A stretch of 64,000 nt of DNA from Nautilus pompilius (Eukaryota; Mollusca; Cephalopoda; Nautilida; Nautilidae). Shown here in pieces: positions 33 to 60,981 of the stretch (position 1 is its first letter; each line of letters opens with the position of its first letter). The DNA lies in contig JACATO010002131.1 in NCBI GenBank assembly GCA_018389105.1, forward strand, positions 496,001-560,000, read 5' to 3'. The notes under the pieces were generated by a model. The model was not told the origin of the DNA. It searched no databases and saw nothing but the letters and a program-made list of their open reading frames with translations. Position numbers and translations under genes: made by a program.

Positions 33-778
33 ATGAAACTGGTACAGAAATTCAAACAGGACAGGTTGAGGTTGAAAAGATCAATAAGGATGTAAAAGAA
101 GCAAGTGAATCATGCGGACAAACTCAGAGTATTTCACCCAGCAGCAATACTTATAGTTTACCAGTAGAGAATAGCTACTCTGATGTCTGTGATTCCACTG
201 ATCCATGTAAACACTACGAAATGACTATGCTATATAGCATTTATAATGCAGTTGCTTCTACAAGTACCAGTAATCCTGTTGTTCATAGTAGAAACATGGT
301 CAATGAAAACCTTTTGGCAAGAAATTCTTACAAAGCAGCCAAGTCTGCTCGGAAATTAAAGAAATGTGTCAGCTGCAGCTATCAGACAGTCAGTACGTAT
401 AATCTTCGTCGTCACATTGCAGCCAAGCATAATGTGAATTTCTACAGGTGTGCGGAGTGTCCGACAAAAAAGTTTGCTGATAAGTATCAGCTACGACAAC
501 ACCGGGCTGCAGCTCACTCCAAAGAATTGCTGTGTGAGTGCCACGGGAAGACGTTTCGGTCGCGGCAGGGACTGCAACAACATCTAAAGAAAATGGTCGG
601 TGAAGCCAGTTATGTGTGTTATGTTTGCAACAAGGCCTTTTTAACAAAAATACTTCTAGAGAACCACTTAAATGTTCACACTGGGGTAAAGCCGTATAAA
701 TGTGAATTTTGTGGCAAGCATTTTTCTTGGAGGGGATCTTATTATACACATGCCTCGACTTGCCATCCTCAGTTTTGA
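33..778 (+). CDS. Terminal exon with five C2H2-type zinc fingers
   Basis: The exon opens after a pyrimidine tract ending in CAG at 30-32. The reading frame needs one base from an upstream exon (phase 1, giving Asp if that base is G) and runs 247 codons to a TGA at 776-778. The first ~105 residues are acidic and serine/threonine-rich, as expected of a linker. Fingers lie at 365-766: a C-x2-C...H-x4-H finger, a second with C-x2-C, a degenerate third where CECH precedes GKTF, a canonical fourth followed by a TG-linker (HTGVKPYKC) and a fifth ending H-x4-H. The family binds DNA in the nucleus. There is no donor after the fingers, so this is a 3' terminal exon. The start of the protein is outside the window. 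The internal ATG at 221 is probably not the start, because the frame stays open from the acceptor. Likely one isoform-specific end of a BTB/zinc-finger type gene (inference). Confidence 0.85.
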
Positions 779-3379
779 GTCTAGCTGGAGGTTTATTTCT
801 GATGACCAGATGGATTAAAGACTTTTCCAAATTAACTACCAAGTAATTTTTACATTAGGGTTGCCTATAAATTACTATTGTTTTCTAGTTTGAATTTTAA
901 TGATTTATGCTGAACTTCTTGTCTTTTACATTAGTACAAAAAAGAAGCATCAAGTCCAATCTAGAGTAATAATTTTAAAAAAAAATTAGAGATGCTGTAT
1001 TTTTAGTTTATATTAAAAAAAAGATAATATATATACTAATGTATTAGATGTTGATTATTTACTTTTTTTTTAAAGCTACAGATTATTTTTTTTCTGATTT
1101 GGTATTAAACTATTAGTATTCTCAAAGAGCAGGACAGACTGTAGATTTCGTTTTTGTTCTTAAATACCACATTAATTAGAGATGGTGAGACTAACAATTA
1201 CATAGATTTGAAAGTACACTGCTTCTGGTTCTGGTGTCAGTCTGAAAGTATTTAAATGTTGGTTATCTTCAATTCAGATCCGTGCATTTAATGAATGTGT
1301 AAATTCTAGACATACATGAACAGCAAAACAAAAAAGCTATATAAACCAACAAGAAGGTCATATATGTTTAAATGCACACACATCCTTTTCAGCATTATAT
1401 ATCTCAATATTTCAGAATATCCTGTCATGTAAGTCTCATTGGCAGGGCTAAAATCCATTCTTTTTATTACTTGCAAAGTGTACTGAAAATAAAAATAATT
1501 ATTGACGCATTACAGTTTGAGATGGTTACTGTGTGTGTGTAAAACTTTTGTTTGTTATACATGTATTTCAAGAAAATGATTGTTGTTTTAAAGAAATCTG
1601 GTTTGTTTTTTTTTTGTTTTTTTTTTTCATTTTAAAACTTGCTTTTGTCATACAGGAGGCAAGTGGACGAAGTATTACATCTTGATGATAACATTTTAAC
1701 TGATGTAACATATCTTGGTTATCTAAACATTTGGGTAAATCAGTCGTAATCGAATAAACATGTTTGACACAGATGAGAAAGTGATACTTGTTTGATGTTT
1801 GGTAAAACTTAAAAAAAAAACAAAAAGTGGTTTTTATATTTCCAGTTTTACTTATGATAAAAGCTACGCGAATCTACTACAGTAAATAGCCCAGCCAACA
1901 GCAATACTCTACTAGTAGTTTACCATTGTATGAAAAAAATGACCACTAAAAAGTAAAGTTTTCTCTCAGAACCAGTATGCCATAAGATCAAATAAACAGT
2001 GTATATTTCCTTTGAAATCATTTAATAAAATATTGCAGCCCAGATTATGCGATTCTTTTTCAAAATAGATATTTTATTTTATGTTTAAACACTACTAATT
2101 ATATGCATATATGAAAAAAATGTTTAAATATTTAATCTGAAAGATAGCTGCTTTTGCTGGGTGTGTCTTAAAAGATTTTCCAATATGAGACAAATAGGTC
2201 AGTATGTAAATACCGTTCTTTCCCAGTAGTGTGTCAGTGTCAGTGCTAACAATGCACTATCTAATTTGAATATTTCAGTTTTTTTTTTTTTTTTGTGGAT
2301 AACAAAAAGATTTATAAAGTCACTTTTAGAAGCTAAACTTCTCAAGTTTGTGCAGGTGTCACATGATGAAGATTAAGGTTTAACCGAAGGGAAAAAACAA
2401 AACTATAATACTGTTTAAAATTATCAGGAGCAACTGGCCTACAGAAATGGTTCTTTTAATGTCAGCCAAGGTTATCGCACACACGCTATTGGTTTGTTTC
2501 TTTTTTCTTTGAAGCTTGCTTTATGGTAATTTATATTTGCATAAATTATTTTGAAATTTGTCTTGTCTTAATTAAAAGTATCACTGATTATGTCACATTT
2601 GAGAGATTTTAAGAAAAAGAAACAATATCCAAGAGACACAATTATTAATTATAGAAATTAAAGGGATTATTTTATTTTTATTATTTTAGGCTTTATCCAC
2701 CACATTTGTATTAGTAACAGAACTAGCCAATATGTCAGTTTCCTATTTTGTTGTTCATTAGTTTAAACAGTTGGTGAAAACAAGTAGGTAACCAAGTTGC
2801 AAGCTTGTGCCACTGTTATATATATAACATTGTGGTGGAAAAAGACTGAAGTAACTCTTAAAATTGTTATGTATGAACAAATAAGAGAAAATCATTCTTT
2901 AATATGCATCATACCATTTAAAATTTTTGTTTATGATGTGAATAATATGCAAAGCAAATATGCTTCTATATCATGTTATATGTATGTTAGGACTGTCGCT
3001 TGCATGGTGAACTGGCATTCATTGTGGAGCATCATTACTGGGTATTAGTTGGGCACTTACACTTGCTGCTGGAACAAAACTCCAGAACAACTTATCTGGC
3101 CGCTCACACTATTAATGCCCAGGCTGAGGATCCATAAACCAGAAAATTGGAATTAAAGTTATAGCAATCAAACAAGAGAAAGAATCTACATTCTGGTAAT
3201 AATTTAGTGTATAAAGGAAGAAAAAAAGAAAAGTTTTTTTTTTTTTTTCATGCTTTTGATGAGAGAGAATAGGATAGGGTCCAAATGGTTATGTCCATCA
3301 ATGGGGAGTTTCTTTGATACTGTGACTGGTGGTTCTGTATCCATAGTTTGACAGTTCCTTCAGTGGTGTTTGTCTTGGT
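779..3379. other. 3' UTR then intronic/intergenic AT-rich DNA
   Basis: The first several hundred bases are presumably 3' UTR of the preceding exon. The rest is AT-rich with many A and T runs and no frame with coding character. The stretch 3050-3140 is less AT-rich and may belong to the Tc1 relic that follows. Confidence 0.5.
1488..1493 (+). terminator. Candidate poly(A) signal for the first zinc-finger exon
   Basis: AATAAA hexamer about 710 bases after the stop codon, in AT-rich DNA. A second AATAAA lies near 1754. Such hexamers are frequent by chance here, so neither is certain. Confidence 0.25.
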
Positions 3380-3564
3380 TATGTCTCTGTTGGAGAGATT
3401 CCTGAGTGTTCTATGTGATTGGGTGTGCCATTTTCAGTTAAGAAACAAATGACTGATGTCTTGGAGCAGCTTATCAATGAAACTATCTTGACCATTGTAG
3501 CGCCTGCTAGATGTGTGCTCTTGTCATCTTTTTTGACTGCTGTAACGTCTTTGCCTTTCCCCAT
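3380..3564 (-). mobile_element. Tc1/mariner relic, transposase N-terminal region
   Basis: The minus frame starts MGKGKDVT and continues through a helix-turn-helix-like pattern (hydrophobics around ISCSKTSVICFL, then a Gly-rich stretch). This resembles the start of Tc1-like transposases, which open with MGKGK/MGKTK and a paired-type DNA-binding domain. The following bases on that strand (down to about 3240) vaguely continue the second helical half with frame changes. No catalytic region or terminal repeat is seen, so this is a fragment. The plus frame over the same span (3419-3607) is its shadow. Confidence 0.4.
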
Positions 3565-3619
3565 GCTTGTTAGACAGACTGCAAATGTGCTTGTTCAAGT
3601 CATATAGTGCTGTAGGAAT

Positions 3620-6600
3620 CATCTGTCACAGCATGAGGTCAACATAATTTGTATCTGTAGCCCAGCCCAAGTCTAAAAAGGTAAATAGGTCCTAATAAAG
3701 TTGTGTGTTTTCTTTATACTCTTTGAGGGACTTGTCTTGAAAAATTACATCATCTCTACTTTTTTCCATAAACCATATTTTGTGTAGATGTTTTGAATTA
3801 AAACTAAACAATTATGATTGATCTTCGATTAATTTGGATGAACTATATCAAACTTTAAAAAACAATTGACAGCACTAGTAGTAATGATGATGATGATAAA
3901 AATTTTATGTTGTTTTTTTTTTTGGTGAAATTTAATAGATGAACTAATATTAAACAAAAAAATCTCAATATTTTTGCATTTAAGATAGTGCTTATTTTTC
4001 TTTATCAGTTACATTAAGTATAGAAGAAAGGTATGCAGAGAAACAGGTGTAACTAAATGCTTTCACTAAAGTATTGTTAAATATATGCTGTAGTGAAAGA
4101 AAATTGTGTTAGGAACCTTGTGGAATTTTGTTGTGCAGATATGTATTTGTTTAAGAAGAATAAACAAATTAATCAAATATGTGGCAGCATTCAAAATTTG
4201 TGGAGAAACTGATGCTATGACTGTTTTCTATCAGAAATTACTCTTGCAAACTATATAAAGTGTATGGTATATGTATTAGCTTTTAAAATTTTTTTGATAC
4301 ACATTGGTGTTTCTTATTATAATTCTAAAAAAGTCTCATGTACTTGATCACAACATAAAATCTCTTAGTAGTACTTTTTTTTTCCAGAATATTTATTTTT
4401 ACTGTTGATTGTCATAACTTTGCTCTTGATAGATTTTTTTTTTTTTTGGCTTTTCTGTTACCTTTGTTCACTACCTCTTGTGTGCTAGATTAGATTAGCT
4501 AGGGATAAACTGATCAAAAGGGCAGGGCCACTTGCTCTGCCTGTTTACATAATATAGGACTACATATTGCTGTTCAAAAGGAACTTTAGGAAGTGAGTTT
4601 AACAGCTTTTCAATTGTGAAATAAAAAAAATTTACATTGTAAATCATTTGTCCCACAATTGTTTGTTTGCTTGCTTGCTTAAAATACTGTGAAAAGGGCT
4701 GCTAATTCTCAGATCACTTTAAATCAACTATCTTTTTGAAAAAATATAAGAGGTTTCACAGTTGGTATTGTTTTGACTGATTGCCACATTAAAATAATTG
4801 GAGCAAGAAAAACTATCTTTTAGATCAGAATTATACATTAGTATACAAGGTACCAAAATTACAGTATTTGTGGTTAACAGATTGAAAAGTTTTACTTTGA
4901 TATGGACACAGGCCTGTAGCATCTCTCTCTCCTTACCTGAAGTTATCAAATTGACTACTTTTCTACATAATCTTCATTACCAACACATTTTGTGTTGTTA
5001 ATACTGTGATTGTTTCAGCAAGGTTCCCACATATGTTGGTGAAGAAAATAAATGAATGTCCCCTTCTCTGTTAAGCATCATTTGTCATGGTTAAAAACCA
5101 ATCCAGAACTAATTTGGAGACATTCTTGCATACATCTGAAAATTGGTCTACCTGTGCATGTAAAGTTGAATCAATCTTTTGAAGGATTTATGGTAAATGT
5201 ATAAGTTGGTTCTGTTCTGAATTTGGATCATCTTCAGAATCTATATCTCTGATTCACCAGTTTACATGTTTCACTTTTTAGTTCACAAATGCTTTTCCTA
5301 TATAGAAATGTTAGAATAAAAACCCCATTAGCTGACAGTTTGATATTTGCGTAAAAGTAATAAGTTTACTGAATCTGTGGGGGTAATAATACTAGAAAGG
5401 AAGAAGAGAAATGCAATTTACATTTTAAAATTATTGACAGCTGCCCATTTCTCAGAGGAGGTCTATTGTTTTCTGTGATGCTGGATTTTACTCAAAGCCA
5501 CACTGGATTTTGCTAACCAAGTGATGCTGCTGCTGCTTACTACAAAAGGAGTCTATAAAGAAGACAACGATGACAAGAAGTGGTTTGTACATATAGCAGG
5601 TCCTAAAACAACATTTGTTCTATAAAGTTTAACAGTGATATGAGAGCTCAACAGCAAGAGTCCTTTCCTGTTGATTCTTTTTCCAAGTTATCTTTATTTA
5701 TAAAACAGTTGAGACCCTGTCTCAAGGATTGGGGTTTTTCTGTTGAAAATGAAAGATTTTGTTTGGACTTTTTTACTGTTTTTCCATAAGGACTAACTTT
5801 GAAACCTGTTTCAAAGATTTGTTTTTCTTTTATCAGCTTTATTTTCAGTAGATACCCACCCAGCACAGCAACTTGTTCTATCCTTTAAAAAGTGTTTTTC
5901 TCTGGATTTTTGTTTTATATGAATTTTGTTAAAATGCGAAACCCATGAGAAAATCTTATGGTTTATAGTGAAGAAAAGTCTCCGTTGCACCAGATATAAG
6001 CATCGCCTCCTGAATGGGGTCTTTCAAGTGGAGGTTTTTCTTGTTGCTGTCTTCAGGCTGGCCCTGAGGAAAACTCGTCAATCAAACATTTTTGTCCCCC
6101 CCAAAATGTCTAACCACGGGGTTTTGAGACGCTATTGCTTTTACAGCGATATTTTAATCCTTTTGTTGGGTGAAGAAGACTTTAAAACCGTGGTGGGTAA
6201 AAAAATAAAAATGGCAGTATTTTAATTCTTGGAAAGTGTTCTGCAATTTATGTGCTTTTACGATTATCGAATGTCTAACCTTTTATGGACACCATAGCAT
6301 CTGGTTCATGAGCAATTTTTAGTTAGGGAAGTGATAGAGATTACTTAGGGAAAAAAAGTGGAAAGTTTGTTCGTAACACCTTTCATTAAAGGTACATTAG
6401 TTTGTAACTTCAAAACACTGAAGCTATAGAAGGATGACTGGTCTGAAAAACAAACAAAACTGCGATATCGTTTCTGGTTTTTCTGATATTAGCTTCGCTA
6501 CTTTGTGCCAGCTTATGTGGAGTTTTGGATTTCCGGTCAAATCCTCCCATTTTTTGTTGGGGACTTTGGATTGAATGCTCTTCTCCCACAACCAGGCCAC

Positions 6601-7111: not shown

Positions 7112-7194
7112 ATTCTGATACAAAAGAAGAAAAACAAGAAACTTTACAGCAAGACCAACCTGTGATGTGGCAGACAGGAGAATCATCAAGAGAG
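7112..7194 (+). CDS. 83-nt internal linker exon, phase 1 in, phase 0 out
   Basis: It is bounded by TTTTTTATCAG before and GTAAGA after, both good splice sites. Only one frame is open: it borrows one base upstream and ends exactly on a codon, encoding 27 full residues (SDTKEEKQETLQQDQPVMWQ, then TGESSRE). The peptide is acidic and glutamine-rich with no known domain, which suits a flexible linker. Its acceptor has the same phase as the zinc-finger exon at 33, and both open with a GAT-type split codon. So the two probably compete for one upstream donor. Its phase-0 donor matches the phase-0 acceptors of all the recognised downstream exons. It therefore looks like the shared joint that leads into the later alternative 3' ends (inference). 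Confidence 0.65.
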
Positions 7195-7670: not shown

Positions 7671-7699
7671 GAGAGGAGGAGGAGGAGGAGGAGAAGGAA
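7671..7699. repeat. GGA-rich purine microsatellite
   Basis: A run of GAG/GGA triplets ending in GAGAAGGAAA. It is purine-only on the plus strand. Confidence 0.8.
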
Positions 7700-7996: not shown

Positions 7997-8000
7997 ACAG

Positions 8001-8109
8001 CCATGCTGCCCTTGTTTTAAACAGGGGGAAATGTGGGAGCTGTTGCTGTAAAGACACAGGCTGCTGTACATCTTGTGTTAACTCGATGTGCAAATTCATG
8101 GGAGCACAG
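8001..8109 (+). CDS. Candidate cysteine-rich internal exon
   Basis: It lies between a very long pyrimidine tract ending CACAG (8000) and a donor GTATGT at 8110. The only frame open throughout needs two upstream bases (phase 2) and leaves in phase 0. It encodes 36 residues with nine Cys in 20, containing CGSCCCKDTGCCTSC, a spacing reminiscent of metallothioneins. No exon in the window has a phase-2 donor that could feed it from upstream. In phase 0, after the 7112-7194 exon, it would instead give 16 residues and a stop. It may be a cassette of this or another transcript, or chance splice-like sites beside a TC microsatellite. Confidence 0.25.
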
Positions 8110-11100: not shown

Positions 11101-11961
11101 AGCTAAGTTTCACCAGTTCTTTTGTCATAGAGTTGAATTCACTTTTGTGACCTTTTAGAAATGCATTCTATGAAAACCTGACTGTTTCGTTTTGGTAAAG
11201 TGATCATGTTTTCAGAAGAAGCTCTCACAAAATATGTAAATGATTAATCTTTGTGTGTGTTTGTACACATGGGTAAAATTAATCTTTTATTATTGCCACA
11301 TGCAGAATTTTAGTGATCTGATTTCATAATTAAAAAAATAAATAAAATAGTTGCTCTTTTTAAATTTTTTCCCTGTATCCTGACACAGAACTGCCCTACA
11401 GAGAACTATTGTTAAGTTTTAATGTCAATTTCAAGATTAATGTGTACAAATGAATTTTCACTAAGTGGTTTGAGTTCAGCTTCCATGCGTGACTGATACT
11501 TAGGTTGGCTCACTGGGTGAAAACTATGGATTATAGGCAGCAAAGGTCTAGAAAAGCTATTTGCCAGTCTTCTACCAAAGAGAGTAGTTAAGATATAAAT
11601 TTAATTTGTGTTTTTTATTATTCAGCTCTTATCATGTCTTTGAAAGTGGTTAATAATAATCCTGTTCTGATTTTTTAATCTGTTTATAATGTTTGCATTT
11701 ATTTAAAAATACCTGGTCTTGTTTGTTTAGTGCCAAATGTTGTCTTAGAAACCAGTGCATGCACCATTGGTTCATTGGTAATTTTAAAATCTTTAGCATC
11801 TGGAAAAGTGAAAGCTTGAAAAATCGAGACTACTTCAGCCCAGAGTGATTAAACATAGCAATAATATACCAAAACATCAGTTCACAGGTGCATATTGAGT
11901 AACAAATTTTTCTTCCATTTTTCAGCTGGGCATAGTTATCTCCTTTAGACAATACCTTATC
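8110..11961. other. Intronic AT-rich DNA, no supported gene
   Basis: Long A/T runs throughout. A micro-exon-like piece (9641-9684: TTTTAG, then 44 open bases with an ATG, then GTATGT) is the only splice-like signal. A CCAAT-type motif sits near 10783 in a less AT-rich patch (10740-10880), but there is no supporting gene start. Confidence 0.5.
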
Positions 11962-11963
11962 TA

Positions 11964-13508
11964 CAAGTGCATCTAAAAAAATTAGAATATCGTGGAAGAG
12001 TTCAATATTTTTTGTCAGTTATTTCAGAAAGTGAAAATTGTATATATTTTAGACTCATTACACACAAAGTGAAATATTTTAAGCCTTTTTTGTTTTAATT
12101 TTGATGATTATGGCTTACAGCTCATGAAAATCAAAAATCCACTATCTCAAAATATTAGACTATTTCATAAGATCAATTTAAAAAAAGGATTTATAATATA
12201 GAAATGTCAAACTTCTGAAAAGTATGTTCATTTATGCACTCAATACTTGGTCGGGGCTCCTTTTGCACGAATCACTGCTTCAGTGTGGTGTGGCATGGAG
12301 GCGATCAGCCTGTGGCTCTGCTGAGGTGTTATGGAAGCCCAGGTTGCTTTGATAGCAGCCTTCAGCTCATCTGTATTGTTGGGTCTGGTGTCTCTCATCT
12401 TCCTCTTGACAATACCCCATAGATTCTCTATGGGGTTCAGGTCAGGCGAGTTGGCTGGCCAATCAAGCACAGTAATAACATGGTCAGCAAACCAATTACT
12501 AGTAGTTTTGATACTGTAGGCAGGTGCCAAGTCCTGCTAGAAAAGGAAATCAGCATCTCCATAAAGCTTGTCAGCAGATGGAAGCATGAAGTGCTCTAAA
12601 ATCTCCTGGTAGACGGCTGCGTTGACTTTGGACTTGATAAAACACAGTGGACCAACACCAGCAGATGACATGGCACCCCAGATCATCAATGACTGTGGAA
12701 ACTTTACAGTGGACTTCAAGCAACTTGGATTCTGTGCCTCTCCACTCTTCCTCCAGACTGTGGGACCTTGATTTCCAAATGAAATGCAAAATTTACTTTC
12801 ATCTGAAAAGAGGACTTTGAACCACTGAGCAACAGTCCAATTCTTTTTCTCCTTAGCCCAGGTAAGACGCTTCTAATATTGTCTTGGTCTTAGACACTAA
12901 TGTGACACTTGTAGCCCATTTCCTGGACACGTCTGAGCATGGGGCTCTTGATGCACTGACTCCAGCCTCAGTCCACTCTTGTGAAGCTCCCCCTAGTTCT
13001 TGAATCGGCTGCTTGACAATCCTTTCAAGCTGCAGTCATCCCTCTTGCTTGCGCACTTTCCTACCACACTTTCCCTTCCAATCAACTTTCCATGAATATG
13101 CTTTGATACAGCACTCTGCAAACAGCCAGCCCTTTCAGCAATGACCTTCTGTGGCTTACCCTCCTTGTGGAGGGTGTCAATGAGTGTGTTCTGGACAACT
13201 GTCAAGTCAGCAGTCTTCCCCATGATTGTGGTTGTGTGTACTGAATCAAACTGAAAGATTCATGGTATTTATACTGCATAAATAGTGATTTAGTTAAACT
13301 TGAAATGGAATATTCTAATATTTTGAGATACGTTTTTCCTATTTTTTGAGCTGTAGGCCGTAATTATCAAAATTCAAATTAAAAAATGATTGAAACAATT
13401 TAGTTTACATGTAATGAGTCTAGAATATATACAATTTTCACTTTCTGAAATAAATGACAAAAAATATTGAACTCTTCCATGATATTCTAATTTTTTGAGA
13501 TGCACCTG
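11964..13508 (-). mobile_element. Tc1-like DNA transposon, copy A
   Basis: The ends read CAAGTGCATCT on the left and, reversed, CAGGTGCATCTC on the right. TA target duplications lie at 11962-11963 and 13509-13510. The terminal inverted repeats are long, about 210 bases. Each carries a second, inner copy of the tip motif (ATCTCAAAATATTAGA-like), the IR/DR plan known from some Tc1 elements such as Sleeping Beauty. The transposase lies between them on the minus strand. The copy is 1545 bp and its inner parts are decayed. The same family occurs, inverted, at 62027-63384; by eye the two are roughly 90% identical or more. Confidence 0.92.
12240..13223 (-). pseudogene. Tc1-type transposase remnant (copy A)
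   Basis: Starts MGKTADLTVVQN and a helix-turn-helix (SAVSKHIHGK). It continues through the DDE core: LFSDESKFC holds the first catalytic Asp, QDLAPA the second, and SPDLNPIENLWG the Glu of the DD34E triad. It ends at TKY before a stop at 12240. The frame is lost after HGKLIGRE by small indels. Bases are missing around the VKP...NQRQ region, compared with copy B. A TAG stands where the first Gln of the usual FQQDLAP stretch should be. No transposase can come from this copy. Confidence 0.9.
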
Positions 13509-13759
13509 TATGTTTACATCTGTAAAATAAAATTGATCTGGTTAGACTTGAACGAGGAATTAATTCCTTGTTTATCTTGTTCTAAATTTATGTTGTACCT
13601 TTACTAGCTAGTTGGTGCACAGTAAAGTTTACTTAGAACAGGCTAATCCTTTTCTTCATCAGTAAAAAGGAACTTGTTGGCAGCACTGTTTTTACTTATC
13701 TTTCATCTCATCAGACTCACAGCAACAATTTTTTTCATGGAAATCATCTTCAAAGTTAT

Positions 13760-23605: not shown

Positions 23606-23890
23606 AGTACTTTTTGTCTTTGGTCTGTTGGAGCACAGACTGCAAGGATAAATGCATTCCAAGTGAAACATGATCTACAGCGGACACCGGACAGCAAAAA
23701 GATGTACTGCATTCAGTGTAGGATTACTGGCAGGGTCACTGGAGGTATTCGTCTGCGGCCCCATGTGACAAGGTGTTGGTGTTTCACATGTCAAGTCCCT
23801 ATATGTAACCCTCGGTGCAGACCAGAATGCTGGCGTGAGCACAGTGGTGAAGCTGAAATGAAAGACACACTCACATTTATGCAGCTGTGA
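23606..23890 (+). CDS. Terminal exon with piggyBac-like cysteine-rich domain
   Basis: After ATTACATAG at 23605 the phase-0 frame is open for 94 codons to a TGA. The domain spans residues ~21-80: HDLQRTPDSKKMYC, then C-x2-C (35, 38), a basic spacer RLRPHVTRCWC, CFTCQVPIC (59, 62, 67) and C-x3-C-x3-H (71, 75, 79). This order, including the TxxxC..C.VP.C...C...H core, resembles the C-terminal zinc-binding domain of piggyBac transposases, which helps bind transposon ends. No piggyBac catalytic core is seen upstream, so the domain stands alone behind a splice acceptor. Composition is far less AT-rich than the surroundings, and both frame and cysteines are intact, which suggests host use. It could join the donor at 7194 in frame. 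It may instead be a different cross-brace zinc domain. Confidence 0.65.
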   Translation, partial: STFCLWSVGAQTARINAFQVKHDLQRTPDSKKMYCIQCRITGRVTGGIRLRPHVTRCWCFTCQVPICNPRCRPECWREHSGEAEMKDTLTFMQL

Positions 23891-25185: not shown

Positions 25186-26206
25186 GTGAAGTTTATTTAT
25201 CAAAGTAAATTCCAGTACAATCAATACATTTCTGCCAACAAGTTACAAGCACATTAATACCATTTTGAAAAAAATCTAGATTTCTGGAGTCAATAAACTG
25301 TTGGAAGGCAGTTTCAATTGATGCTTGGTTGGAGGAGGATTTCGTATGGAGGAAGCTGTCGAGGTGTTTGAAAAGGTGGTAGTCTGTGGGTGAAAGATCT
25401 GGTGAATAAATAGGCTGGGTGAGGGAGAATCTCATATCCCAACATGTTCAGTGCTGAAGAGTCACTTTTGCAACATGAGGACGGGCTTTGTTGTGGAGCA
25501 AGATTAGGCCTCTTTGATTCACCAATACCTGTTTTTGTTGGGAGAGTTTCTGATGAACAATGTTTAATCCACAACAGTACCTTTCAGCTATGATGGTTTT
25601 GCCGGGTTGCAAGAAGTTATAATAAATGACACCAGTTGCAGTCCACCAGACAGTGACCTTGACCTTCTTTAGCTGGAGGCTGTGTTTTGGAATGTGGTTA
25701 GGCGCTTTGTCTCTGTTGAGCCACTGTGCTGATCGTTTGTGATTGTCATAAAGGATCCATTTTTCATTACACATAATGATTTGGTCAAATTGTTTTTTAT
25801 GACAAGCGAAAAGCCGATTTCAAATCAATGATTTTATTGTTGTTTATTCAGCTCGTGAGGCACCCACTTGTCAGGTTGTTTCACCTTGCCGATGGTGTCA
25901 AGATGCCAGGAAACAGTTGCAGTGCTTACATTAAGCTCTCCAGCAATTTCTTGCACTGTTTTTCTTGGATCAGCTTCAACTGAGGCTTTCAGACGGCCAT
26001 CATCACAGCTGGAAGAACCTCTGCTATGTTCCTTATCTACGAGGCTCTCATCTCCTGATCGAAACTTTGCAAACCATGGTTGTACTATGCGCTCATTTGT
26101 TGTGTCCTTGCCCCATGCTTGCTTAATGTTACAAGTTGCTTTGTTGGCTTTGTGGCCCAGTTTGAACTCATGAAGCAAAAATGACAAAAAACATTTTATA
26201 TCCATG
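25186..26206 (-). mobile_element. Mariner element, decayed
   Basis: The minus strand holds a nearly whole mariner transposase. The N-terminal part (26205 down to 25834) has paired HTH motifs, with RIVQPWFAKFRSGD, a GSSSCDDGRLKA hinge and KWVPHELNKQQ, as in irritans/mellifera-type mariners and SETMAR. The catalytic part follows in other frames: NEKWILYDN, then LLHNKARPHVA, then YSPDLSPTDYHLF, ending YFDK. The family motif is DEKW and LLHDNARPH, so the first two catalytic Asp are both Asn here. Frame shifts separate the parts. Terminal repeats were not identified, so the outer limits are uncertain. Confidence 0.88.
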
Positions 26207-26214
26207 CTTCACTC

Positions 26215-38214: not shown

Positions 38215-39775
38215 TAAAAATCTAAATTGCAGTTGCAGAAATCAAAAATGCACAACTTTTTGGGCTTTCCTTCTATGTATTGAAGTATCATCCTGAATTA
38301 GACTCCAAATATAGTCACTCATCATTCTGACATCCCATCTTCCCTGATATCTCTTTTCCATTGTTAGGATATCTTGGTGAAATCTTTCATTATGCTCTTT
38401 ACTGAAATCTCCCATGTTGTCTTTGAAGAAATCTAGATGAGAATGAAGGCCGTGAAGCTTGAGAGACATTCTGCATCCAGGCTTTTCATACTCATTGATT
38501 AAATCCTCAATCAATTGTATATAGTTTTCACTTCTGTTTCCCAGAAAATTTTCACCAACTAAAAATGCTTTCCATGCTCTCTTTCCTTATTCTGACATCT
38601 TGTCTTCTAATTCTTCTGATTTGAGCGTTTGATAAACTTGCAGCCAAACAAAAATCCTACCCTTTACTTTTGCTTTTGAAAGATTTGGAAACAATTCATG
38701 AATGTGTTGGAATGCTTCACTTTCTGTGTTAAGAGCTTTAGTGAACTGCCTCACAAACCCCAGTTTTATGTGCAGTGGAGGCATGAGGAATTTTTTCTGA
38801 TTTCACCAAGGGCTCATATTTAGCATTTTGTGTCCAAGGAATAAACTGATCTCTGGCTGGCTACACTTCTGTAATGCTGTGATTTGGCATGACTATCTCA
38901 AAGACAGAGAAAGCATGAGTATTTTGTGAATCATCCTTATAGTCCTTTCAAAAAACCAATCATCTTAAAACCTCCACAAATATTCCAGTTATATTTTTTG
39001 TAGTCAATTGTCTCCAGCATAACAGCATAAACTTAACATTTTCATAATCATCCTCCATATGTACAGAATGGACAGTGGGTATCTATGGATGTTTGTTTCC
39101 ATTGTGAAGGGCTGTTTTGAGACTTCTCACCAAACTGTCAATGAAGAGATGCCATTCAATAGGATTGTGCACAGTATCTATTTTGTAAAACAAGTTATTA
39201 ATGTCACTGCAGAAACATAGCTTGCCATTCACTGAGAAGTATCTTGAGAATTTTTCATTCTTTTTTTCTGGAACATATAGATTCACAACTGCTATCCAAG
39301 AGATTCCATTCTTTCAGTCTTGATATAAGAAGTTCAGCATTAGATTTTGTTAAACCTAAATCTCGTACTAAGTCATCCAGTTCTTGCTGATCTGGAAAAT
39401 GAGGCTGCTTTGAATTTAAGTCAGAATCATCTACAGGTGAATCTTAACACATCCATTAGACAAAAGTAACAGTCATCTATGTGATTCTTAGGCTCTTGCC
39501 AAATACAAGGATTGCAAATGGCATTGCTTTATGATCTTCTCTGAGCCATCCTTCCAGTGTTGATCTGCATGTTCCACAAGCCACATGAGGTGGCCATGAT
39601 TTTTCTTGATCACCAATCTTCATTCCAAAGTTTGATTCATAGGCCAGTGAAAATTTATTGTTTGGTGTGATCATATGTCTTACTTGCTTTGGGCCAACAA
39701 TGAATCTACAAACATAACAAAATGAGTCTGCAGAGAGCTTTCATTTTCGATTTGCAGCCATTCTTATCTAATAGA
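38215..39775 (-). mobile_element. Fossil multicopy ORF element, family unnamed
   Basis: Minus-strand pieces follow one another in the order of a single long protein. First comes an N-terminal part with a cysteine-containing stretch (HVACGTCRSTLEGWLRE). Then come LDDLVRDLGL-like and FSRYFSVNGKLCFCSD stretches and IEWHLFIDSLVRSLK. These are followed by PPLHIKLGFVRQFTKAL, and finally LHSHLDFFKDN and ERFHQDILTMEKRYQG near the C-terminus. I recall the same protein as an abundant uncharacterised repeat-like family in several invertebrate and some vertebrate genomes. Its class is unknown to me, so it is treated as a fossil: it is broken in several places and looks old. Confidence 0.75.
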
Positions 39776-44120: not shown

Positions 44121-44852
44121 ATGAAAGTCAATGTACAAAACAGTACCCCAGTCGGATCTGGTTATGGCACCGAAGAAATTAGGGGTTTGTTTTCTGAAAG
44201 AACAGATAATGTGACTCTCAGCAACCTTTCAAAAGATACTTCATTTACTTGTGGTAAGGGGCAAATGGTGAACACTACAATGGCTGTACAGGGGAATCCC
44301 CAGCTAGCTAACTATAACCACAGATGTGAGTGTGGACAGCTTTTCTTTACATTAGGTACACTGGAAGTTCATCGGAAAGTCGAACACAGCGGGACAGCAG
44401 CCCATGAGTTTAGGTGCAGTTTGTGTATGCTCCAACTGACTACTTTTCAAGAGATGCAGGATCACATAAAGTATCAGCATGCTGATGCTGCACAGGTCTG
44501 CAAGAACTGCGGGGCTCTGTTTGTTTCCATCGACTTGTTAACAGAGCATGTGAAGAAGTATCATTGGGAGTTCACATGCAAACACTGTGGCAAGAAATTT
44601 GGCAGGAAGCACCATCTAGAAAGTCATATGCGCTTACACGAAGAAAACCCAACGCTGTTTGCTTGTTCCAAATGTGACTACACAAGTGTCTATAAACATT
44701 CTGTTCAGAGACATCTGAATTCAGTTCACAATCATGAACGTAAACATCTGTGTATTAAATGTGGCAAGAAATTTAAATTGGTTAGTAGTCTCGTCAGACA
44801 CAGGCTTAGGTGTGGCAACTCTCCAGAACAAACACATGATGTCTTTTACTGA
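44121..44852 (+). CDS. Terminal exon with six C2H2-type zinc fingers
   Basis: After TGTCTTATATTTTTTAG at 44120 a phase-0 frame runs 243 codons to TGA. Residues 1-66 are a Ser/Thr/Asn-rich linker. Fingers: 1 (C69-x-C71...H84...H89, only one residue between the cysteines), 2 (C99, C102, H115, H120), 3 (C127, C130, H143, H148), 4 (C153, C156, H169, H173, with GKKF), 5 (C182, C185, H198, H203) and 6 (C211, C214, H227, C231). They are mostly not joined by the TGEKP-type linker. This suits invertebrate BTB/ZF isoform exons rather than KRAB-type arrays. The exon can be joined in frame from 7194. The first codon is ATG, but being directly at the acceptor it is probably internal. Predicted role: sequence-specific DNA binding in the nucleus. 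Confidence 0.88.
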   Translation: MKVNVQNSTPVGSGYGTEEIRGLFSERTDNVTLSNLSKDTSFTCGKGQMVNTTMAVQGNPQLANYNHRCECGQLFFTLGTLEVHRKVEHSGTAAHEFRCSLCMLQLTTFQEMQDHIKYQHADAAQVCKNCGALFVSIDLLTEHVKKYHWEFTCKHCGKKFGRKHHLESHMRLHEENPTLFACSKCDYTSVYKHSVQRHLNSVHNHERKHLCIKCGKKFKLVSSLVRHRLRCGNSPEQTHDVFY

Positions 44853-47201: not shown

Positions 47202-47537
47202 AATAATCATCAAGGATCAGAGACGAACAAGATGTTTGGGTTTTTACTGGATATTACTAAAGAGATTCAGGAAAACATGAATGCTTCAAAAAGTCCTGAG
47301 ATAAACACAGAAAGTAAAGCGTCAACATCAAGGGCAGATGAGGTTTATGAATGTACAGAGTGTAGCTTTAAGACCCGCTACAGGTTTTCTTTCAATAGAC
47401 ACTCGCGAAAACACTCTGGAACAATGTACACGTGTGAATTTTGCTGTCACAAGTTTTATGAAAGATACAGATTACGAAGACACATTGAGAATTACCATCA
47501 GACCAATCTAGTACTTGCAGAGTTTGAAAACAACTGA
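47202..47537 (+). CDS. Terminal exon with a pair of C2H2 zinc fingers
   Basis: After CCAAATATTACAG at 47201 a phase-0 frame encodes 111 residues and a TGA. A polar linker (1-48) is followed by two fingers: C51, C54, H67, H71 and C78, C81, H94, H99. They are joined by the short SGTMYT linker; each has an aromatic residue at the usual position. This linker plus tandem finger pair, without a stop or donor between, is the classic layout of lola-type isoform exons. The frame continues upstream into the intron by chance as far as 47124. The splice phase matches the donor at 7194. Confidence 0.85.
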   Translation, partial: NNHQGSETNKMFGFLLDITKEIQENMNASKSPEINTESKASTSRADEVYECTECSFKTRYRFSFNRHSRKHSGTMYTCEFCCHKFYERYRLRRHIENYHQTNLVLAEFENN

Positions 47538-48394: not shown

Positions 48395-50656
48395 AAACAA
48401 AATACCTGCTAAAAAAAAGCAAAAATATTCAGCAACAAGGATTATTTTCCTTTTTAATAAGAAATCTCCGACATTCCAACATGAATATAAAATTCAAGTT
48501 GTTTCATGATATTAATCCTTTTGTTCATATAACATCTTAGTGGAAAGTTTACTTGGGAACAGCTTAAGGCATTTGATGGCTGCCAGAGTTCAGAGAACAT
48601 GGTTGTAGCTATAGCTTTGTTATTACAAAATGGTTGCGAATCAAAATTAGCTGAAGGATTTCACGATGACTGTCAAATGTGATGTAAAATAGAAATGGTG
48701 GTGTTTCTTGATCCCTAACATTCTATAGCTGCTGGAATGGCTTATTGAGGGATACATCATCAATGAACAATAGCAAATGTTTTTGTTTCTAATAAATACA
48801 ATAAAGGATTTTCAGCTTGCTTTGTTGACAGAAAACTACATTTCCGTTTTAGTCCTCTAAAATGCAAATGAGAAATGACATGTTACTGTTTATTTTTTTT
48901 ACATCATCCATCTGTATTAGTATCTTTTTTTCTCTCTTAAGAATGGTTAAAATATGGATTACTGTATAATAATGATGACAATGATAATTTTCTTTTTGAA
49001 ACTTTTTTAGCATTAAAAGTTACAATGCTTTATTCAAAGAACTTTTATGACTACAAAGGTTAACTTACTTAAATAAAGAAAATTATTGTACTCTCTTTAT
49101 ATAAAAAAAGAAGACTAATTGCATTTCCCACTATTTTCAAATGCTCTTGCTTGTCAACAATCAGAGTAATTCCATAACCATCTCTCCTGCAGATAGGTCA
49201 GGTCTTACAGTTTCATGTTTTTATCAGTGTTTTATATTCTACAGTAATAGCTCACTGGAAAAAAATTTTTTTTTCTTAAACTGTTAACCCTCTGTATATC
49301 ACATCAGTTTTTACCTTCCTTATACCACTTGGCCAGATATCTGTGTTGCTGTTTAATTAGTTAATGCAAAGCACATGCAGTTGGAGTGATACTGATTTGT
49401 CATTACAAAGTTTATATTACTGTGTTACAGTGCCTATGATCTAACTAACCTCTGCTGAGTAGTATAGATTTGAATGATATTAGGGTACAAATGCATTCCA
49501 GGTGGTATACAGTAGGTTAAGAATGGGTTGTGAATACTGTAGTATACTTTTAGTATTACATATCTAGTTACATTTTAATTTAACTGAAGGTTAAGTATCT
49601 TTTGCAGGGTTACTTCTGGCTAGTTGTTTTATCTTGCTGAACTTGAAACACTCAGTACAATGAAATTACATAGTAGCATCCAAGTTCACAATAATTGTCT
49701 TCTCCAGATTTTTATAAAGACTTGCTGATTATTCTGCATGTACCCAGAAACTAGATATTCAATATACTTAATTTCTAGTTTTCAAAAAGAGAAAAGGGTA
49801 AAAAAAGAAGAAAGCTTATTTTAAAAAAAAAAAAAAAATTTCAGTTAGTTTCAGCAGAAACTATCTTGATTCTGTAATATTTTTTCTTTTTTTAAATTTT
49901 ATATTATTAGTAAGAGAGGTAATCTGTATGTAATGTAGATAGTCATATTTCTTGATAAAATAATGAAAATATAATGCCATAAAGTTCTTGGGATAGACTG
50001 AAGAAAAACAATTATTAAGGGAAGTGCAAGTATCTGCTTTAGCTCTACTGAATGTGAGAACTTGTATATAGCACATTAGACGGTTAATTTTTCAAACCTT
50101 TGGTGACTTGGAAATCAATTAATACTTTAATATGATAGATTTTTGTTGATACAGTGTACTTTCTGTGACAAATATATTATTTTGTTTAGAATTTTGCCCT
50201 CCTCTAACTTTTGTCTAATTATCAAAAGTATCAATATGACAGCAGTTGTACTATCGTAGAGCAAGCTTCAAAACAATACAATTTGGCATGTAGCACAAGT
50301 AGTGTGATACACCATAGAGTAATGGGCATGTTAAGCTACTACATTTATAGCATACAGCCAGTATCAGTATAGAATGTTTTGCATGTAAGCAAATAAATAA
50401 TTTTTAATTTTCTTTTTCATCTTTTTATTTTACTTTCCTTTCAGCAGTTTTTAAATTTATTTTTTGCTTATGTTATTTAAAAAATAATACATTCATGATA
50501 TCATCACCCAAATACTCTGTTGATCTAATACATTAAAATAAATGGGAAAGTGAGTGTTTTCACTTTTTAGAACAGAGTCGGAGGATATCCCACTTATGAC
50601 AATGATGTAATACAGCATTTATGTCATGTTTCAATTATCGTTTTGGGTAACTATTT
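48395..50656. other. AT-rich DNA, no supported gene
   Basis: A/T-rich sequence with short chance frames only. Confidence 0.5.
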
Positions 50657-51007
50657 TTGATGATGATGTCTTTTACTTATGATGATGTAGATAATATTAT
50701 TAATGATGTCATATCTTCCAATTATGATGTTGCTATGGGTAACAGTATTAATGATGATGTATCTTCTACTTATGATATTTCTGTAGATAATATTATTAAT
50801 GACATCAGATATTCTACTTATGACATTTTTTTGGATAACAGTATTGCTGGTGATGTATTTTCCAAATATAATGTTGTTGATAACAGTTTTAATAATGCTA
50901 TATCTTCCATTTATGATGAGGTGGATAACAGTATTGGTGGTTATGTATCTTCCAATTATGACATTACTAAGGATAACAGTATTAATATCTCAAAACATTA
51001 CTATTGA
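50657..51007 (+). repeat. 45/48-bp minisatellite, open in one frame
   Basis: About six full units and a partial one, of 48, 48, 48, 45, 45 and 48 bases, theme GATAACAGTATTAATGATGA followed by TGTATCTTCC. All unit lengths are multiples of three, so one plus frame stays open for 116 codons, giving a 15/16-residue repeat around DNSINDDVSSTYDI. No splice site or start with good context is attached, so protein coding is unproven. Confidence 0.85.
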
Positions 51008-51866: not shown

Positions 51867-52154
51867 GGGAGGGGACTTTGCTTAGAAATTATGTCAGTTT
51901 TGCAAACTTTGTCCAGGTGTCAAGACAGGATAATAATACCATGGCTTCATTATTGTATCATAAGCAGAAAAATTTTCTCGGAGTATAAACAAAAACAAGA
52001 ACAACAGGAAATACCCTTAGAAAAAACAAAAAACAATGTAGATCTTAACAGTGAACCAAAATTACAAAATGAACAACAAAACCCAAATAATTGTAAATTA
52101 GAATTTGAAGTAAATTTAAAGGGTCTTTGTTCTGTAAAAAAAAATTTTAATTAA
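51867..52154 (+). CDS. Candidate phase-0 terminal exon, unrecognised protein
   Basis: A strong acceptor (TTTTTTTTCTAATTATTTTATAG) ends at 51866. The phase-0 frame is then open for 95 codons to TAA. In DNA this AT-rich, about 7% of random codons would be stops, so such a run starting exactly at a good acceptor is unlikely by chance. The first half contains four cysteines and aromatic residues; the second half is Gln/Glu/Lys/Asn-rich (KQKQEQQEIPLEKTKN), with few T-rich codons. No domain is recognised. Phase and length match the neighbouring alternative 3' exons. It could equally be a low-complexity chance frame. Confidence 0.35.
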   Translation, partial: GRGLCLEIMSVLQTLSRCQDRIIIPWLHYCIISRKIFSEYKQKQEQQEIPLEKTKNNVDLNSEPKLQNEQQNPNNCKLEFEVNLKGLCSVKKNFN

Positions 52155-55563: not shown

Positions 55564-55815
55564 GCCGACAGACAATCTTTGGGGCAGTTTTACGAGGTCC
55601 ACAATTCAGGCTTTGGAATGCAAGCCGCGGTACGGATAAGCCGTTCGGCCAAGAACTACGCTAGGGTGAAGAAATGGAGGGAGAAGCTGAGACGCGATCC
55701 ACAAAAGCATGAAGAGTACAGAAAGCGTGAAGCAGCTAGGAAGAGGGATGCAAGGAGAAGGTCAAGAATGGAGCTGCTCATGTGGCATGAAAAAAATCTT
55801 TTTTTACATCTTTGA
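55564..55815 (+). CDS. Terminal exon with a basic Arg/Lys-rich domain
   Basis: After TTTTTTTGTTTGCCCATAG at 55563 the phase-0 frame encodes 83 residues and a stop. The core (residues ~30-72) is strongly basic and predicted helical: ARVKKWREKLRRDPQKHEEY followed by RKREAARKRDARRRSR. This kind of YxxKLxxDPxxxExYKxREAxRKR module recurs in many invertebrate uncharacterised nuclear proteins and resembles a basic DNA-binding or nuclear-localisation helix. It has no leucine zipper. The exon is much less AT-rich than its surroundings and the frame is intact. Phase 0 fits the donor at 7194. AATAAA signals follow at 56241. Confidence 0.75.
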   Translation, partial: ADRQSLGQFYEVHNSGFGMQAAVRISRSAKNYARVKKWREKLRRDPQKHEEYRKREAARKRDARRRSRMELLMWHEKNLFLHL

Positions 55816-56240: not shown

Positions 56241-56253
56241 AATAAACAATAAA
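56241..56253 (+). terminator. Poly(A) signals of the basic-domain exon
   Basis: Two overlapping hexamers in AATAAACAATAAAA, about 430 bases after the stop codon. Confidence 0.5.
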
Positions 56254-59200
56254 ACACTGGCTTTATTGTGGTTTTTTTTGCTTAAATTTTTTTAATGGCT
56301 ACTACTCCTGTTCTAGCTATACTTATGATGTCTTGTTCGTGTTTATAGAGATTCCATAGTACATGCAATAGGCACTCTGTTTTAAATCTCAAACATTTAA
56401 AAAAAATTTATTTAATTAATTTTTTTAACCTTTGTCTATTTTGTAAGATTCCTCAATACAAAATAGCATTATTCTAATGAGTTGATGATAGGTTATGTTA
56501 AACTAAATATCGAGAATTATTGGCATACTGGAAACATGGGGTGGATACAATTCATCAGATACAAAATTATATACATAAAACCTGTTGCTGTTGTGATATT
56601 GCATTGTCTATTTAAACTTAACTAACATCCTTTTGGAGTCCAATTCTCTCTTAGTCTACCATAGCTAATAGAAACAGGACCACCATTTAGATTTTAGAGA
56701 TGATTACTTTTCTTTATCTTGATTTCTCTGCATAGTAGTGAACTTGTTTATCAATTTTGTTTTTAGTAAAACACTATCAAAATTTTCATTCAATGTGTTA
56801 AAAGCAGTTATTTATTGGTTTGTTAAAATTTTGCTATGAAAAAAAATATCTTTTTTGTATCTATTTTGGTAAATAAAGAGTTACTTTCTTTGCATGCATA
56901 GATAATAGAAAGTTAGTAAACCAGCCATTTACATTTAATTATGCCCAAGTTTTTGTACTTACATATAAATGTTCTTTATTTATGTCTATAGTTTGTATTA
57001 GTAATGAGTGTATTCTTTAGCAAAAGTGATTGATTTAATCTTTATTCACCAATCTCTGTAAGGAAGACTACCCTGGTGAAGAGCGGCTGCTAGAGACTGT
57101 TATCCTGTGCAAAGTGGTTTTATGTAGGCTTTTTTTTCCATTGAGGGCACCTTGAATGTGTTTTAGAGTATGTTTATATTTTCACATCACCTGTAGACAG
57201 ATGTGCAGAGTGTATAAATCAGTACACGATTATGCTTAGTTGGGATATACTTTTTACTGAATAAAATAATTTTTTATAGAATAAAGCTTTGAAGTGAGTG
57301 GGTACAGCCTAACAAATAAAGTAGATGAAATATCATATATACAAGGTAAATAAATGATAGAATTTGCAAATAAAAATATATAACTTATTGATACACTTAT
57401 GTTTCTGGTACCAGGTACTGATCGCAGGTAAGCACAGAATTTCCTTAAAACATACATGAAACAAACCAGATGTAAGATAGACGAGACCCTAAGTTCTTTT
57501 GTAGCTGATAATTTTGTTTAAGTGTCAGAATTCATAAGAGAACAAAAAAAAAGCCTGACTATTAAACCCAGACTGGGGTGGGAGTAGGAGAATACATCTG
57601 TCTAGCCAGTGTTTGCTCAGTTATTCTCTGTTAGTGGAACACGCAGCCTCTAGCTTGATACTGTTTATGTAGATGCTTGGATTGATGAGGGATTAACTAC
57701 CCACTTTGTAAAACAGTGCATGGCCAGTCAAACCCCAATAGAAATGAAGCAAGATTGCAGGCCCTTAGTTTTTCTTTTATAAAACGGTTTTTAACTTTAC
57801 TAAAATATTAAATTTAAAAAAAAAACAAACTTGAGGACATCTGTAAAAGCATGAAATAGTGATCACTAGCCAAAGTTTTCTATATGAATATATGTAGCTT
57901 TAGCTGTAGTAGTACAGAATGAGCCAGTGAGTGCTAAAGAATTAACTTCCAGCTTTGCTCCAAGGCAAAAGTCCAAGGAAAGTTCTATGTAATTTCTACA
58001 AGAAAATCATATACTAAGGTGGTATTTACCAATTGCATACAATTGGGATGGTAGGTTGGCTTGCTTTTTAGTACACTTGCTTACTATGAACAGGTCTGAA
58101 CTATGTCTGTTGTCCAGAATGTGGGAGTTTCTCTTGCTCTTTACCAGCCTGACTACAATTTTCTCTCATTGATAATCAGAATGTATTTACTGGCTTCTTT
58201 ACTCTGCAAAAGTCTGCAGCTTTCATCTTGTTACACCTCATCCATTTGGATATCATCATGTACATAACCTAAAAAAAAAAGGGTTGTTCCTGAAAGTATA
58301 GGATAATAATTCAATGATGCTTGCTTACCCATACTAGACCTGAATAGTAGCATCACTGCAGAACCACAATGAACCAACAAGAAATTGCATAGAGGAGACT
58401 AAAGAAATTGCTAGTTTTTAAATCATTCACTTTGCCTCTACTTTCTATCTGATAGGTATTTAAAAATGGAAGATTAATCTCTCAAAACATGTGCCATTTT
58501 AAATTGTTATTTTTTATTGGCACTGAAAACTATATTTGCATTTCTCAGGGGTCATACTCAACTTTTGTCTGGGCACTCTGGTATCTTGTGAGTTGCTTTT
58601 TGTACTCAAAAGTGTTGGCAGAATGGACAGGAGACAGTTTTTTTTTTTTGCTTAGCTGGCATTTTCTTACCTGGACATTGTAGGGTGCAATTTGCAATTG
58701 TTTTTAATAACTTCACAATTCTGTGAATGCATGTAGACTTATTTTTTGCAGTTCAGCCATTTCATGAAGTTTTTTACACTGACCATCTGGAGCTTGCTGA
58801 CTTATTTTTAGTTCTGTGTATAGTACCAATAATCCCATCACTGGCCTGTTATGTGTGATCTATGCCAGACATATTGGCTCAATATGATGTCCACGTGTCA
58901 GGAACCATGTTGCCATTTGATGATGATCATCTTTCTGAGGCAGCCAACAGGGAAGTGATTTAATTATTTAATGTGATGGAAGACATCTGACAACTCTGTA
59001 CATAAGTAATTTGGTTTTTAGCTTTGACTCTGCTTCTGTTACTAGTTTTTATCTTTGTCTTCACTTTCCTTTAAGAACTCACTCCATTTTATGAGTGTGT
59101 GCTCTTCACTTATGCTATGTCATCTCCAGCACCTATGTTGAGAATTGACCTGTCTGTGGCTATCCTTGGTAGTCAATAGCATTGTCCCGTGAGACTCTAG

Positions 59201-59577
59201 TTAGCCAGTTGGTATATTATTTCTGTCTTTGGATTCATAGTAAGTCTGTAGCAATGATAGAGGTAGCATTAAAGTAGTCTATCATTACCTGGAGATCATT
59301 TTGGATGTTGGTCACCAACGTGCAATCATAGGTATTTCATTGATATTTCACACACCTTTGTTTTCACCTGAAGAATACCTTTTCATTTAAAAAGCATTTT
59401 AAATTAAAAACTTAACAATAACCATCCAGGATCAGATAAAGCACTGCCTTTGGTTGAACATAATTATTGTTAAAATTTAAGTTTCAAAAATGTGTAAAGG
59501 TAATAAGATTTTATGCAAAGGCAAGATGAAGGTCACTTTACATTGGAAATTAATTTTCTTATATAGAACTTTTGCTA

Positions 59578-59709
59578 ATGGTTTGAACTTCTGACTGTGG
59601 CATCTACTACCTAGATGTTGACAAAATAATAATCATAAACTTTTGGCCAAATAAAACCTGAAAAAAATTGTGGTATGTGTTGGTGACATAGTCACAAGTT
59701 CAAACCACT
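59578..59709. repeat. Imperfect fold-back with box-B-like ends
   Basis: The left arm ATGGTTTGAACTTCTGACTG and the reversed right arm GTGGTTTGAACTTGTGACTA are inverted repeats about 90 bases apart. The arms contain GTTCAAACC, close to the tRNA T-arm/box-B sequence. Confidence 0.5.
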
Positions 59710-60702
59710 GGGAATCCATGAGATTACATGAGTTCTGTGTAAAAAAAATTAATCTCAGTGTATCTACTAATGAGAATAAAGGTTAATCTTCAACTTTACT
59801 TCTGTGAATTATAATTACAAAATCTATGACACACAATAAATGTTTTGTTTGTTCTTAAAGGAGTAGAGCACACATGGATTGTAAATTTGATTTAAAGCAT
59901 TAACACCAATATCTTGTTTTCCTTAAGTATTATTTTATCCACTTTTTAAAAAAAATATTTATGGAGAATATCAAGAAATTTTTGTGGATTAGGATGTGCC
60001 ACACCAACTCTGCATTACAAGCTTGCTTGGATGACCAGAAAGTGCCAACAAGACTATGTTTGCATGGCAGCCCTTCTGTTAAGATATGGGCAGATAATCA
60101 GGCCTTGTTTATCTCTCCCACCTCCTCTCTTTTTTTTCACGCATGCACTTCAACACATTTTTTAAAAAAAAGTCAGATCTAGAGCTTATGCAAATTGTTA
60201 TCCCTAAATCTAAAATGACTAGTTTATGACAAAAAAAGAAATCGGATTGGTAATATTGAAAAGTGTTAAGAAATCTGTGACAATTTAATGGGAAGGAACA
60301 ACTGATGACTATATAATTCTTTTTTTTTTTCTTTTAGATATATCTTGTCATTACTTTTTAAAACTGATTGTAGTTAATTCTGAAGCATAATTTTGTTTAA
60401 GGGCAAGATCAATTGAAAAATTCTAATTTAGTCCACAGTACCCTAAATCTGTGCTTCAGTTTGCCCAAAGCTTTGTACAGTGATGGGTTTTTTTTATTCT
60501 GGTTAGCGGAAGAGAAATGGTATCAGAAAACCCTGATCAAACTATAGAGAAGTGAATTCCAGTGCTTGTTACTGTCCAAAAACAACTGCAACTTTGACTG
60601 GATTTTTAGAAATTAAAATATAATTATAGGCTTTAGTTTTGTTTTGTTTTGTTGTTTAAAGAATCTTTTTAGCATTTACATTTTTATTTTGTCTTGTTTT
60701 AG

Positions 60703-60981
60703 ATGTTCAGTTGTTCACTGCCTCAGACATGCAAAGTTTTCTCAGAAACCAGGCAGCAACAGCAGCAGCAGCGCAACATCTCTCTCCCCAAGTTTAATGG
60801 CTACCTCGCCAACATGCTGGAAGGAGGCAATGCACAGTTTGTGTGGTCCAAGCTTGTCGAGCAGTGTGCTTACCACATATTATCCCAGAAAGACATTCGT
60901 GATAGACATGATTACCGAGAATTCTGCCATGCCCTATATACTCGTTATCCCAGTATTGGACTCGATGGCCCCCAGCCTTGG
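60703..60981 (+). CDS. Coding exon, phase 0 at both ends, YP-motif domain
   Basis: Bounded by TGTCTTGTTTTAG before and GTAAGG after. All 93 codons are open; read-through would stop at 61018-61020. A short Gln run (RQQQQQQR, ~18-24) precedes a conserved-looking globular part: FNGYLANMLEGGNAQFVWSK, LVEQCAYHIL, then DYREFCHALYTRYPSIGLDG ending in PQPW. The pattern (basic/hydrophobic helix, then Y..hC..l..rYP.i......W) occurs in several families of invertebrate nuclear proteins of unknown function. I cannot name the family. Codon use and base composition are coding-like. The phase-0 acceptor fits the same donor as the other exons, but the donor shows that more coding lies beyond the window, or in a different gene. 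Confidence 0.72.

Follow-up and report, generated by a model that had tools for sequence, protein, structure and literature searches.

A plus-strand row of unlike coding exons in Nautilus pompilius that may be alternative 3' ends of one locus

Known loci with alternative 3' ends

In insects, fruitless encodes a BTB protein with alternative zinc-finger ends, which are few in number and all of the C2H2 type. Here, we describe a stretch of 64,000 nucleotides (nt) from the cephalopod Nautilus pompilius (contig JACATO010002131.1, positions 496,001 to 560,000 of the forward strand; the whole stretch is called the window hereafter), in which a row of coding exons may represent the alternative 3' ends of a single gene. 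The described systems closest to such an arrangement include lola, in which a common BTB part is joined by cis- and trans-splicing to many C-terminal exons, mostly of the zinc-finger type (part of PMC1947980), with C2H2 fingers in 17 of 20 isoforms (part of PMC11426971). PMC11426971 also describes TTK-type BTB proteins as usually carrying one or two C2H2 fingers; in that source, TTK-type BTB domains are reported from arthropods only, and Drosophila BTB-C2H2 proteins outside the TTK type each have a single isoform. The ends of mod(mdg4) are mostly FLYWCH modules, 26 of 31 in D. melanogaster (part of PMC4667647), and lie partly on the opposite strand, being trans-spliced (part of PMC12692577). 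In Octopus bimaculoides, most CENP-B-type and most THAP-type factors are reported to carry a BTB part (part of PMC10027918).

The Nautilus row would share with lola a series of alternative C-terminal coding exons, several of them with zinc fingers, but its ends are of mixed kind and include finger arrays of five and six. With mod(mdg4) it would have in common many alternative ends for one common part, as well as small, single-domain ends; in contrast to mod(mdg4), all ends lie on one strand, and Pfam scans of seven stretches gave no FLYWCH-like match. Alternative zinc-finger ends are also the point of likeness to fruitless, from which the row differs in the number and uniformity of the ends. 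The likeness to all three insect loci would be one of working principle. The Octopus factors, as far as the cited part of that source describes them, combine transposon-type modules with BTB as genes rather than as alternative ends, and no THAP or CENP-B module was recognised here; they may nevertheless serve as a lead to mixed modules outside arthropods. Among the matches listed in a literature search of titles and the beginnings of abstracts, no locus with such mixed ends was described.

A single locus with alternative 3' ends and mixed modules is the best-supported reading of the window, and we consider it reasonably likely to be correct. It is favoured because the exons lie on one strand with mostly matching phases, because four of them (A, C, E, and F) are coding-like before their first in-frame ATG, because no convincing start exon was found between them, and because no other high-scoring coding stretch occurs outside transposons.

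Six coding exons and their boundaries

Six coding exons, A and C to G, all on the plus strand, are contained within 61 kb (Table 1). The reading-frame check bears out the original prediction in their positions, frames, and phases (phase 1 for A and phase 0 for the others, that of C being not fully settled). Coding potential was assessed by a codon log-odds score in a leave-one-out design, each exon being scored after training on the others and compared with all equal-length stop-free stretches in the rest of the window on both strands; the training set is small and rich in Cys and His, which favours Cys-rich frames. The scores of C, E, F, and G beat those of all open non-coding competitors (150/150, 44/44, 317/317, and 161/161, respectively), and the non-coding rest of the window contains no open stretch as long as A or D (0/95318 and 0/95582 positions).

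Table 1. Coordinates of the exons, candidate exons, and other features in the window
Feature	Positions	Strand	Description
Exon A	33-778	+	Terminal, with a phase-1 acceptor; array of five C2H2 fingers, one of them degenerate, within 247 full codons
Candidate exon B	7112-7194	+	83 nt; entered in phase 1 and left in phase 0; proposed as a hub
Candidate splice pair	8001-8109	+	109 nt; not accepted as a coding exon
Tc1-like element copy	11949-13516	-	92% alike to the copy at 62015-63391 over 1312 bases; terminal inverted repeats; frames broken by stops
Exon C	23606-23890	+	Terminal, probably phase 0; Cys-rich; possible piggyBac-type zinc finger
Mariner-type transposase remnant	25448-26208	-	Two frames; Pfam Transposase_1 (E 1.8e-22) and HTH_48 (E 2.5e-12)
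Open frame	38242-38586	-	114 codons; no Pfam match
Exon D	44121-44852	+	Terminal, phase 0; begins with ATG; array of six C2H2 fingers, one of them degenerate
Exon E	47202-47537	+	Terminal, phase 0; two C2H2 fingers
Tandem array	50641-50987		Units of 48/96 nt; frames of 112 and 118 codons open in the two directions
Exon F	55564-55815	+	Terminal, phase 0; basic, helical-looking stretch; 83 codons
Exon G	60703-60981	+	Begins with ATG in phase 0; carries a YPSIG...PW motif; either internal (phase-0 donor) or terminal, the stop then ending at 61020
Tc1-like element copy	62015-63391	+	See copy at 11949-13516

A codon scan in six frames returned, among its best 60 stretches, nothing else of at least 18 bits save frames overlapping the six exons (antisense frames included) and transposon remnants; below this value came two simple repeats at 17 to 18 bits and some anonymous stretches at 11 to 14 bits. 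In a scan for terminal exons of at least 40 codons, which summed acceptor and codon scores over 137 plus-strand and 156 minus-strand candidates, the sums were 76.0 for A, 56.5 for D, 45.8 for F, 34.4 for C, 31.8 for E, and 30.0 for G, with 32.2 for one transposon frame and 29.8 for the top minus-strand candidate, which is antisense to A. The six exons stand out in these scans, E and G being set off just narrowly from antisense shadows and transposon frames. Codon scores of transposon frames in the window are likewise high, and the codon test by itself therefore does not tell genes from young elements. Other genes in the window were sought by codon scores, regular expressions, and Pfam scans of chosen stretches, and no tRNAs or Rfam families were found in the window.

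The exon boundaries are defined by several features. Exon A follows a TTTCAG, one base of its first codon lying upstream, and its codon score before the acceptor is -4.8 bits. The TAG of the acceptor is an in-frame stop in C, D, F, and G, such that the frame starts at the acceptor, whereas the frame of E continues open upstream, its codon score changing from -11.7 bits on the upstream side of the acceptor to +3.6 on the downstream side. By an approximate, polypyrimidine-based acceptor matrix, the acceptors rank from the top 0.7% (F, the best of the set) to 32% (C) of 3623 AGs. A matrix-free test used the AG-free runs before the acceptors of A to G, which measure 22, 54, 129, 40, 51, 39, and 30 nt. 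These runs are unusually long: when seven AGs were drawn at random 20000 times, their geometric mean was reached once.

The acceptor of C at 23606 is matrix-poor, being equalled by 32% of the AGs, yet it is the first AG after the longest AG-free run of the set. Other acceptors for this exon lie at 23639 (phase 0, with a better score of -0.3) and at 23634 (phase 1, score -1.4), the latter giving the best sum of acceptor and codon scores. The start of C is the least sure of all, although it is probably in phase 0, at either 23606 or 23639. With either of these starts, all five downstream exons are in phase 0, an agreement with a chance of 0.012 (if phases are equally frequent) to 0.033 (if half of introns are phase 0); without C, our own arithmetic gives 0.04 to 0.07. 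Poly(A) signals are found within 500 nt after A, C, D, E, and F but are uninformative, because 162 such hexamers occur in the 64 kb.

At the far end of the row, G is followed after 60981 by the donor GTAAGG, which belongs to the top 0.9% of GTs, and its read-through tail is not coding-like (31351/48851 stretches score equally high). Both observations agree with the claim that G is an internal exon; a pattern search of 60982-64000, however, found no continuation exon.

Modules carried by the six ends

C2H2 fingers are present in three of the six ends. Regular expressions recognise four canonical fingers in A, five in D, and two in E; the predicted count of two is thus confirmed for E, and those of five for A and six for D hold if one degenerate finger in each is counted by eye. 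The Pfam zf-C2H2 matches of A (E 2.4e-10, 40.7 bits, cut-off 25.2) and D (E 1.9e-12, 47.3 bits) lie above their cut-offs, and the best match of exon E lies below (E 0.0025, 18.8 bits, cut-off 27). The three exons are distantly alike, with 36/138 identical positions in the best stretch between A and D, 23/68 between A and E, and 16/54 between D and E. A scan of genome contigs with A returned one C2H2 array, 39% identical, at L001 2022-3209; this long array lies in a contig filed as a Candidatus Pacebacteria metagenome-assembled genome, resembles animal contamination of the bin, and is of no use for the present question.

The remaining ends belong to weakly recognisable families or to none. In exon C, 52 residues align to positions 4-54 of the 60-position profile zf-Tnp_2 (PF13842, a piggyBac-type zinc finger); the score of 15.3 bits (E 0.031; 15.1 bits from the start at 23639) fails the cut-off of 24. 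The list of open reading frames (ORFs) contains no transposase part adjoining this exon, and its structural model has a mean pLDDT of 48.1. Pfam gives no match for F, and the sole match of G is at chance level (DUF3882, E 0.07); neither exon has a match above cut-off in Pfam, NCBIfam, or PHROGs. The model of G displays predicted helices at low confidence (mean pLDDT 57.9), and its 59 Foldseek matches, the best with E 1.2, are at chance level. A sequence search of the PDB yielded chance-level matches only for F and G and none for C, and scans of viral contigs found no relatives of G, D, or F and, for C, one matching stretch, for which no locus was returned.

Family resemblance suggests that A, D, E, and, weakly, C may bind DNA; for F and G, DNA binding could be supposed only from the company they keep. 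The claim of a set of different DNA-binding modules is weakened by the Pfam results for C, F, and G.

One locus or several genes

Under the single-locus reading, the window would be the 3' part of one animal gene arranged like lola or mod(mdg4), and coding exons to the left of the window would supply the common N-terminus. An upstream phase-1 donor would be joined either to exon A, ending the protein there, or to B. This small exon would shift the phase, and its phase-0 donor would then be joined to any single exon from C to G. Each choice would yield the same core with a different C-terminal module and its own 3' end. We infer the common donor and the hub role of B, and a BTB or other oligomerisation domain in the common part would be a guess. 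A more specific proposal is that a lola-like series of ends with unlike modules has arisen independently in a gene that is not among the known insect loci, one from a piggyBac-type transposase and two without a Pfam family, with a small frame-switching hub exon choosing between a phase-1 end and a phase-0 set. We regard this proposal as possible but doubtful.

The stretches before the first in-frame ATG are coding-like in A, C, E, and F, with 76/1760, 283/26652, 1193/56012, and 1072/34891 open non-coding stretches scoring equally high (C measured from 23639, A up to 214), and these exons would therefore need upstream coding sequence. A Fisher combination of the four fractions, by our own calculation, gives approximately 2e-4, a rough figure given that the null stretches overlap. 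Outside the exons and transposons, a search for start exons gave 21 plus-strand and 22 minus-strand candidates. Among the best 14 of each strand, a score of at least 8 was reached by two plus-strand candidates, whose phase-0 donors lie at 7194 (inside B) and at 8109, and by one on the minus strand; from 8.1 to 63.5 kb, the best plus-strand score is 6.1, in phase 2, and no phase-0 candidate exceeds 3.5.

Several observations weigh against a single locus. Candidate exon B, flanked by TATCAG and GTAAGA, retains the predicted phases; its donor is good, ranking within the top 0.27% of 3765 GTs, and its acceptor, with 54 AG-free bases upstream, is in the top 3.1% of AGs. Its codon score, however, is only in the top 2%, being reached by 366/17783 (or 358/17708) open stretches, and its combined score is 14.2, where the leading minus-strand candidates, transposons excluded, reach 12.7 (a stretch antisense to G) and 12.4. 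As a linker, B is therefore the weak link, barely above chance. Two of the five downstream exons, D and G, have ATG as their first codon at the acceptor, for which the chance is 0.005 at the window rate of 86/3622. If all seven acceptors are considered, ATG follows directly at 33, 44121, and 60703 (in frame in D and G, out of frame in A), with a chance of 0.0004 for three of seven. This excess implies either that some of the exons are genes of their own or that it is a feature without explanation. In addition, the first 40 codons of D are not coding-like (1141/7198 open stretches score equally high), and a start of C at 23634 would place that exon in phase 1. Very short start exons may escape the search described above. 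The 400-nt flanks before the six acceptors of B to G contain no excess of common words: counts of words of 8 to 11 shared by two flanks were reached by 26 to 84 of 200 random sets, and those of words of 12 by 34/200. The longest exact pairing between 600-nt flanks and the 1.5 kb after the B donor is 10-11 nt, a figure without a control. The interpretation as one locus thus draws on strand, phases, coding before ATG in four exons, and the lack of a convincing start exon between them, and is challenged by the weakness of B and by the ATGs of D and G.

These observations could instead point to two or more genes, with A as the last exon of an upstream zinc-finger gene, D and perhaps G as genes of their own with a start codon after an intron in the 5' untranslated region, and a donor common to only some of C, E, and F. 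The ATGs at the acceptors of D and G, the lack of a coding-like score at the beginning of D, the phase of A, which is unlike that of D to G, and the weakness of the bridging exon B would all be accounted for in this way. However, the out-of-frame ATG at the acceptor of A indicates that an ATG in this position need not mean a start, and the first 30 codons of G are coding-like (331/14432 open stretches score equally high), though a start of its own would allow that too. Given also that all six exons share one strand and that no other high-scoring coding stretch lies between them outside transposons, we consider a division into several genes unlikely. Another explanation would be that unrelated genes stand in a row by chance and that the scans missed the start exon of each, as being very small or far away; start exons of a few codons are invisible to the search used, and the introns of this region are long. 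This would, however, require hidden starts for at least A, C, E, and F; all six exons would have to share a strand, and at least D, E, F, and G would have to share a phase. The best plus-strand start-exon candidates beyond 8.1 kb are no better than those of the gene-free minus strand, and such a row appears improbable. Finally, some ends, C above all, could be decaying pieces of transposons rather than exons, as C resembles the Cys-rich tail of piggyBac-type transposases and Tc1-like and mariner remnants lie within the same introns. Exon C is nonetheless open from acceptor to stop, and its codon score exceeds those of all competing stretches, with the reservation already made about young elements; we hold this explanation to be very improbable.

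The splice pair at 8001-8109 has a combined score of 22.6, above that of exon B, with an acceptor score of 9.4, a donor score of 6.0, and 80 AG-free bases upstream. This score is helped by a TC repeat and by the Cys-rich training exons. Only with a phase-2 donor before it does the stretch stay open from 8001; in the other two phases a stop comes early. Its translation matches no Pfam family, and we did not accept the stretch as a further coding exon. Should it be an exon at all, it might be non-coding or act as a poison exon. A CXXC domain was also considered for this stretch and dropped, the cysteine spacing being unfit by eye.

Among the other features of the window, the two Tc1-like copies have a Pfam DDE_3 match under the cut-off; we take Tc1 to be the appropriate name for them, and their look is presumably fish-like. 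The open frame at 38242-38586 presumably resembles an anonymous protein common near transposons in invertebrates. A 95-codon ORF at 51867, behind the acceptor-like TATAG, was discarded with a codon score of -18.4 bits.

Alternative 3' ends on one locus are already known, and the mixed set of ends would be the new part. If the single-locus reading is true, one locus equips a common protein core with several unlike targeting modules, and the gene could sample new binding specificities, perhaps one of them from a transposon, while the old ones are retained. It would also make possible a direct test of whether the lola-type organisation arose more than once in animals.

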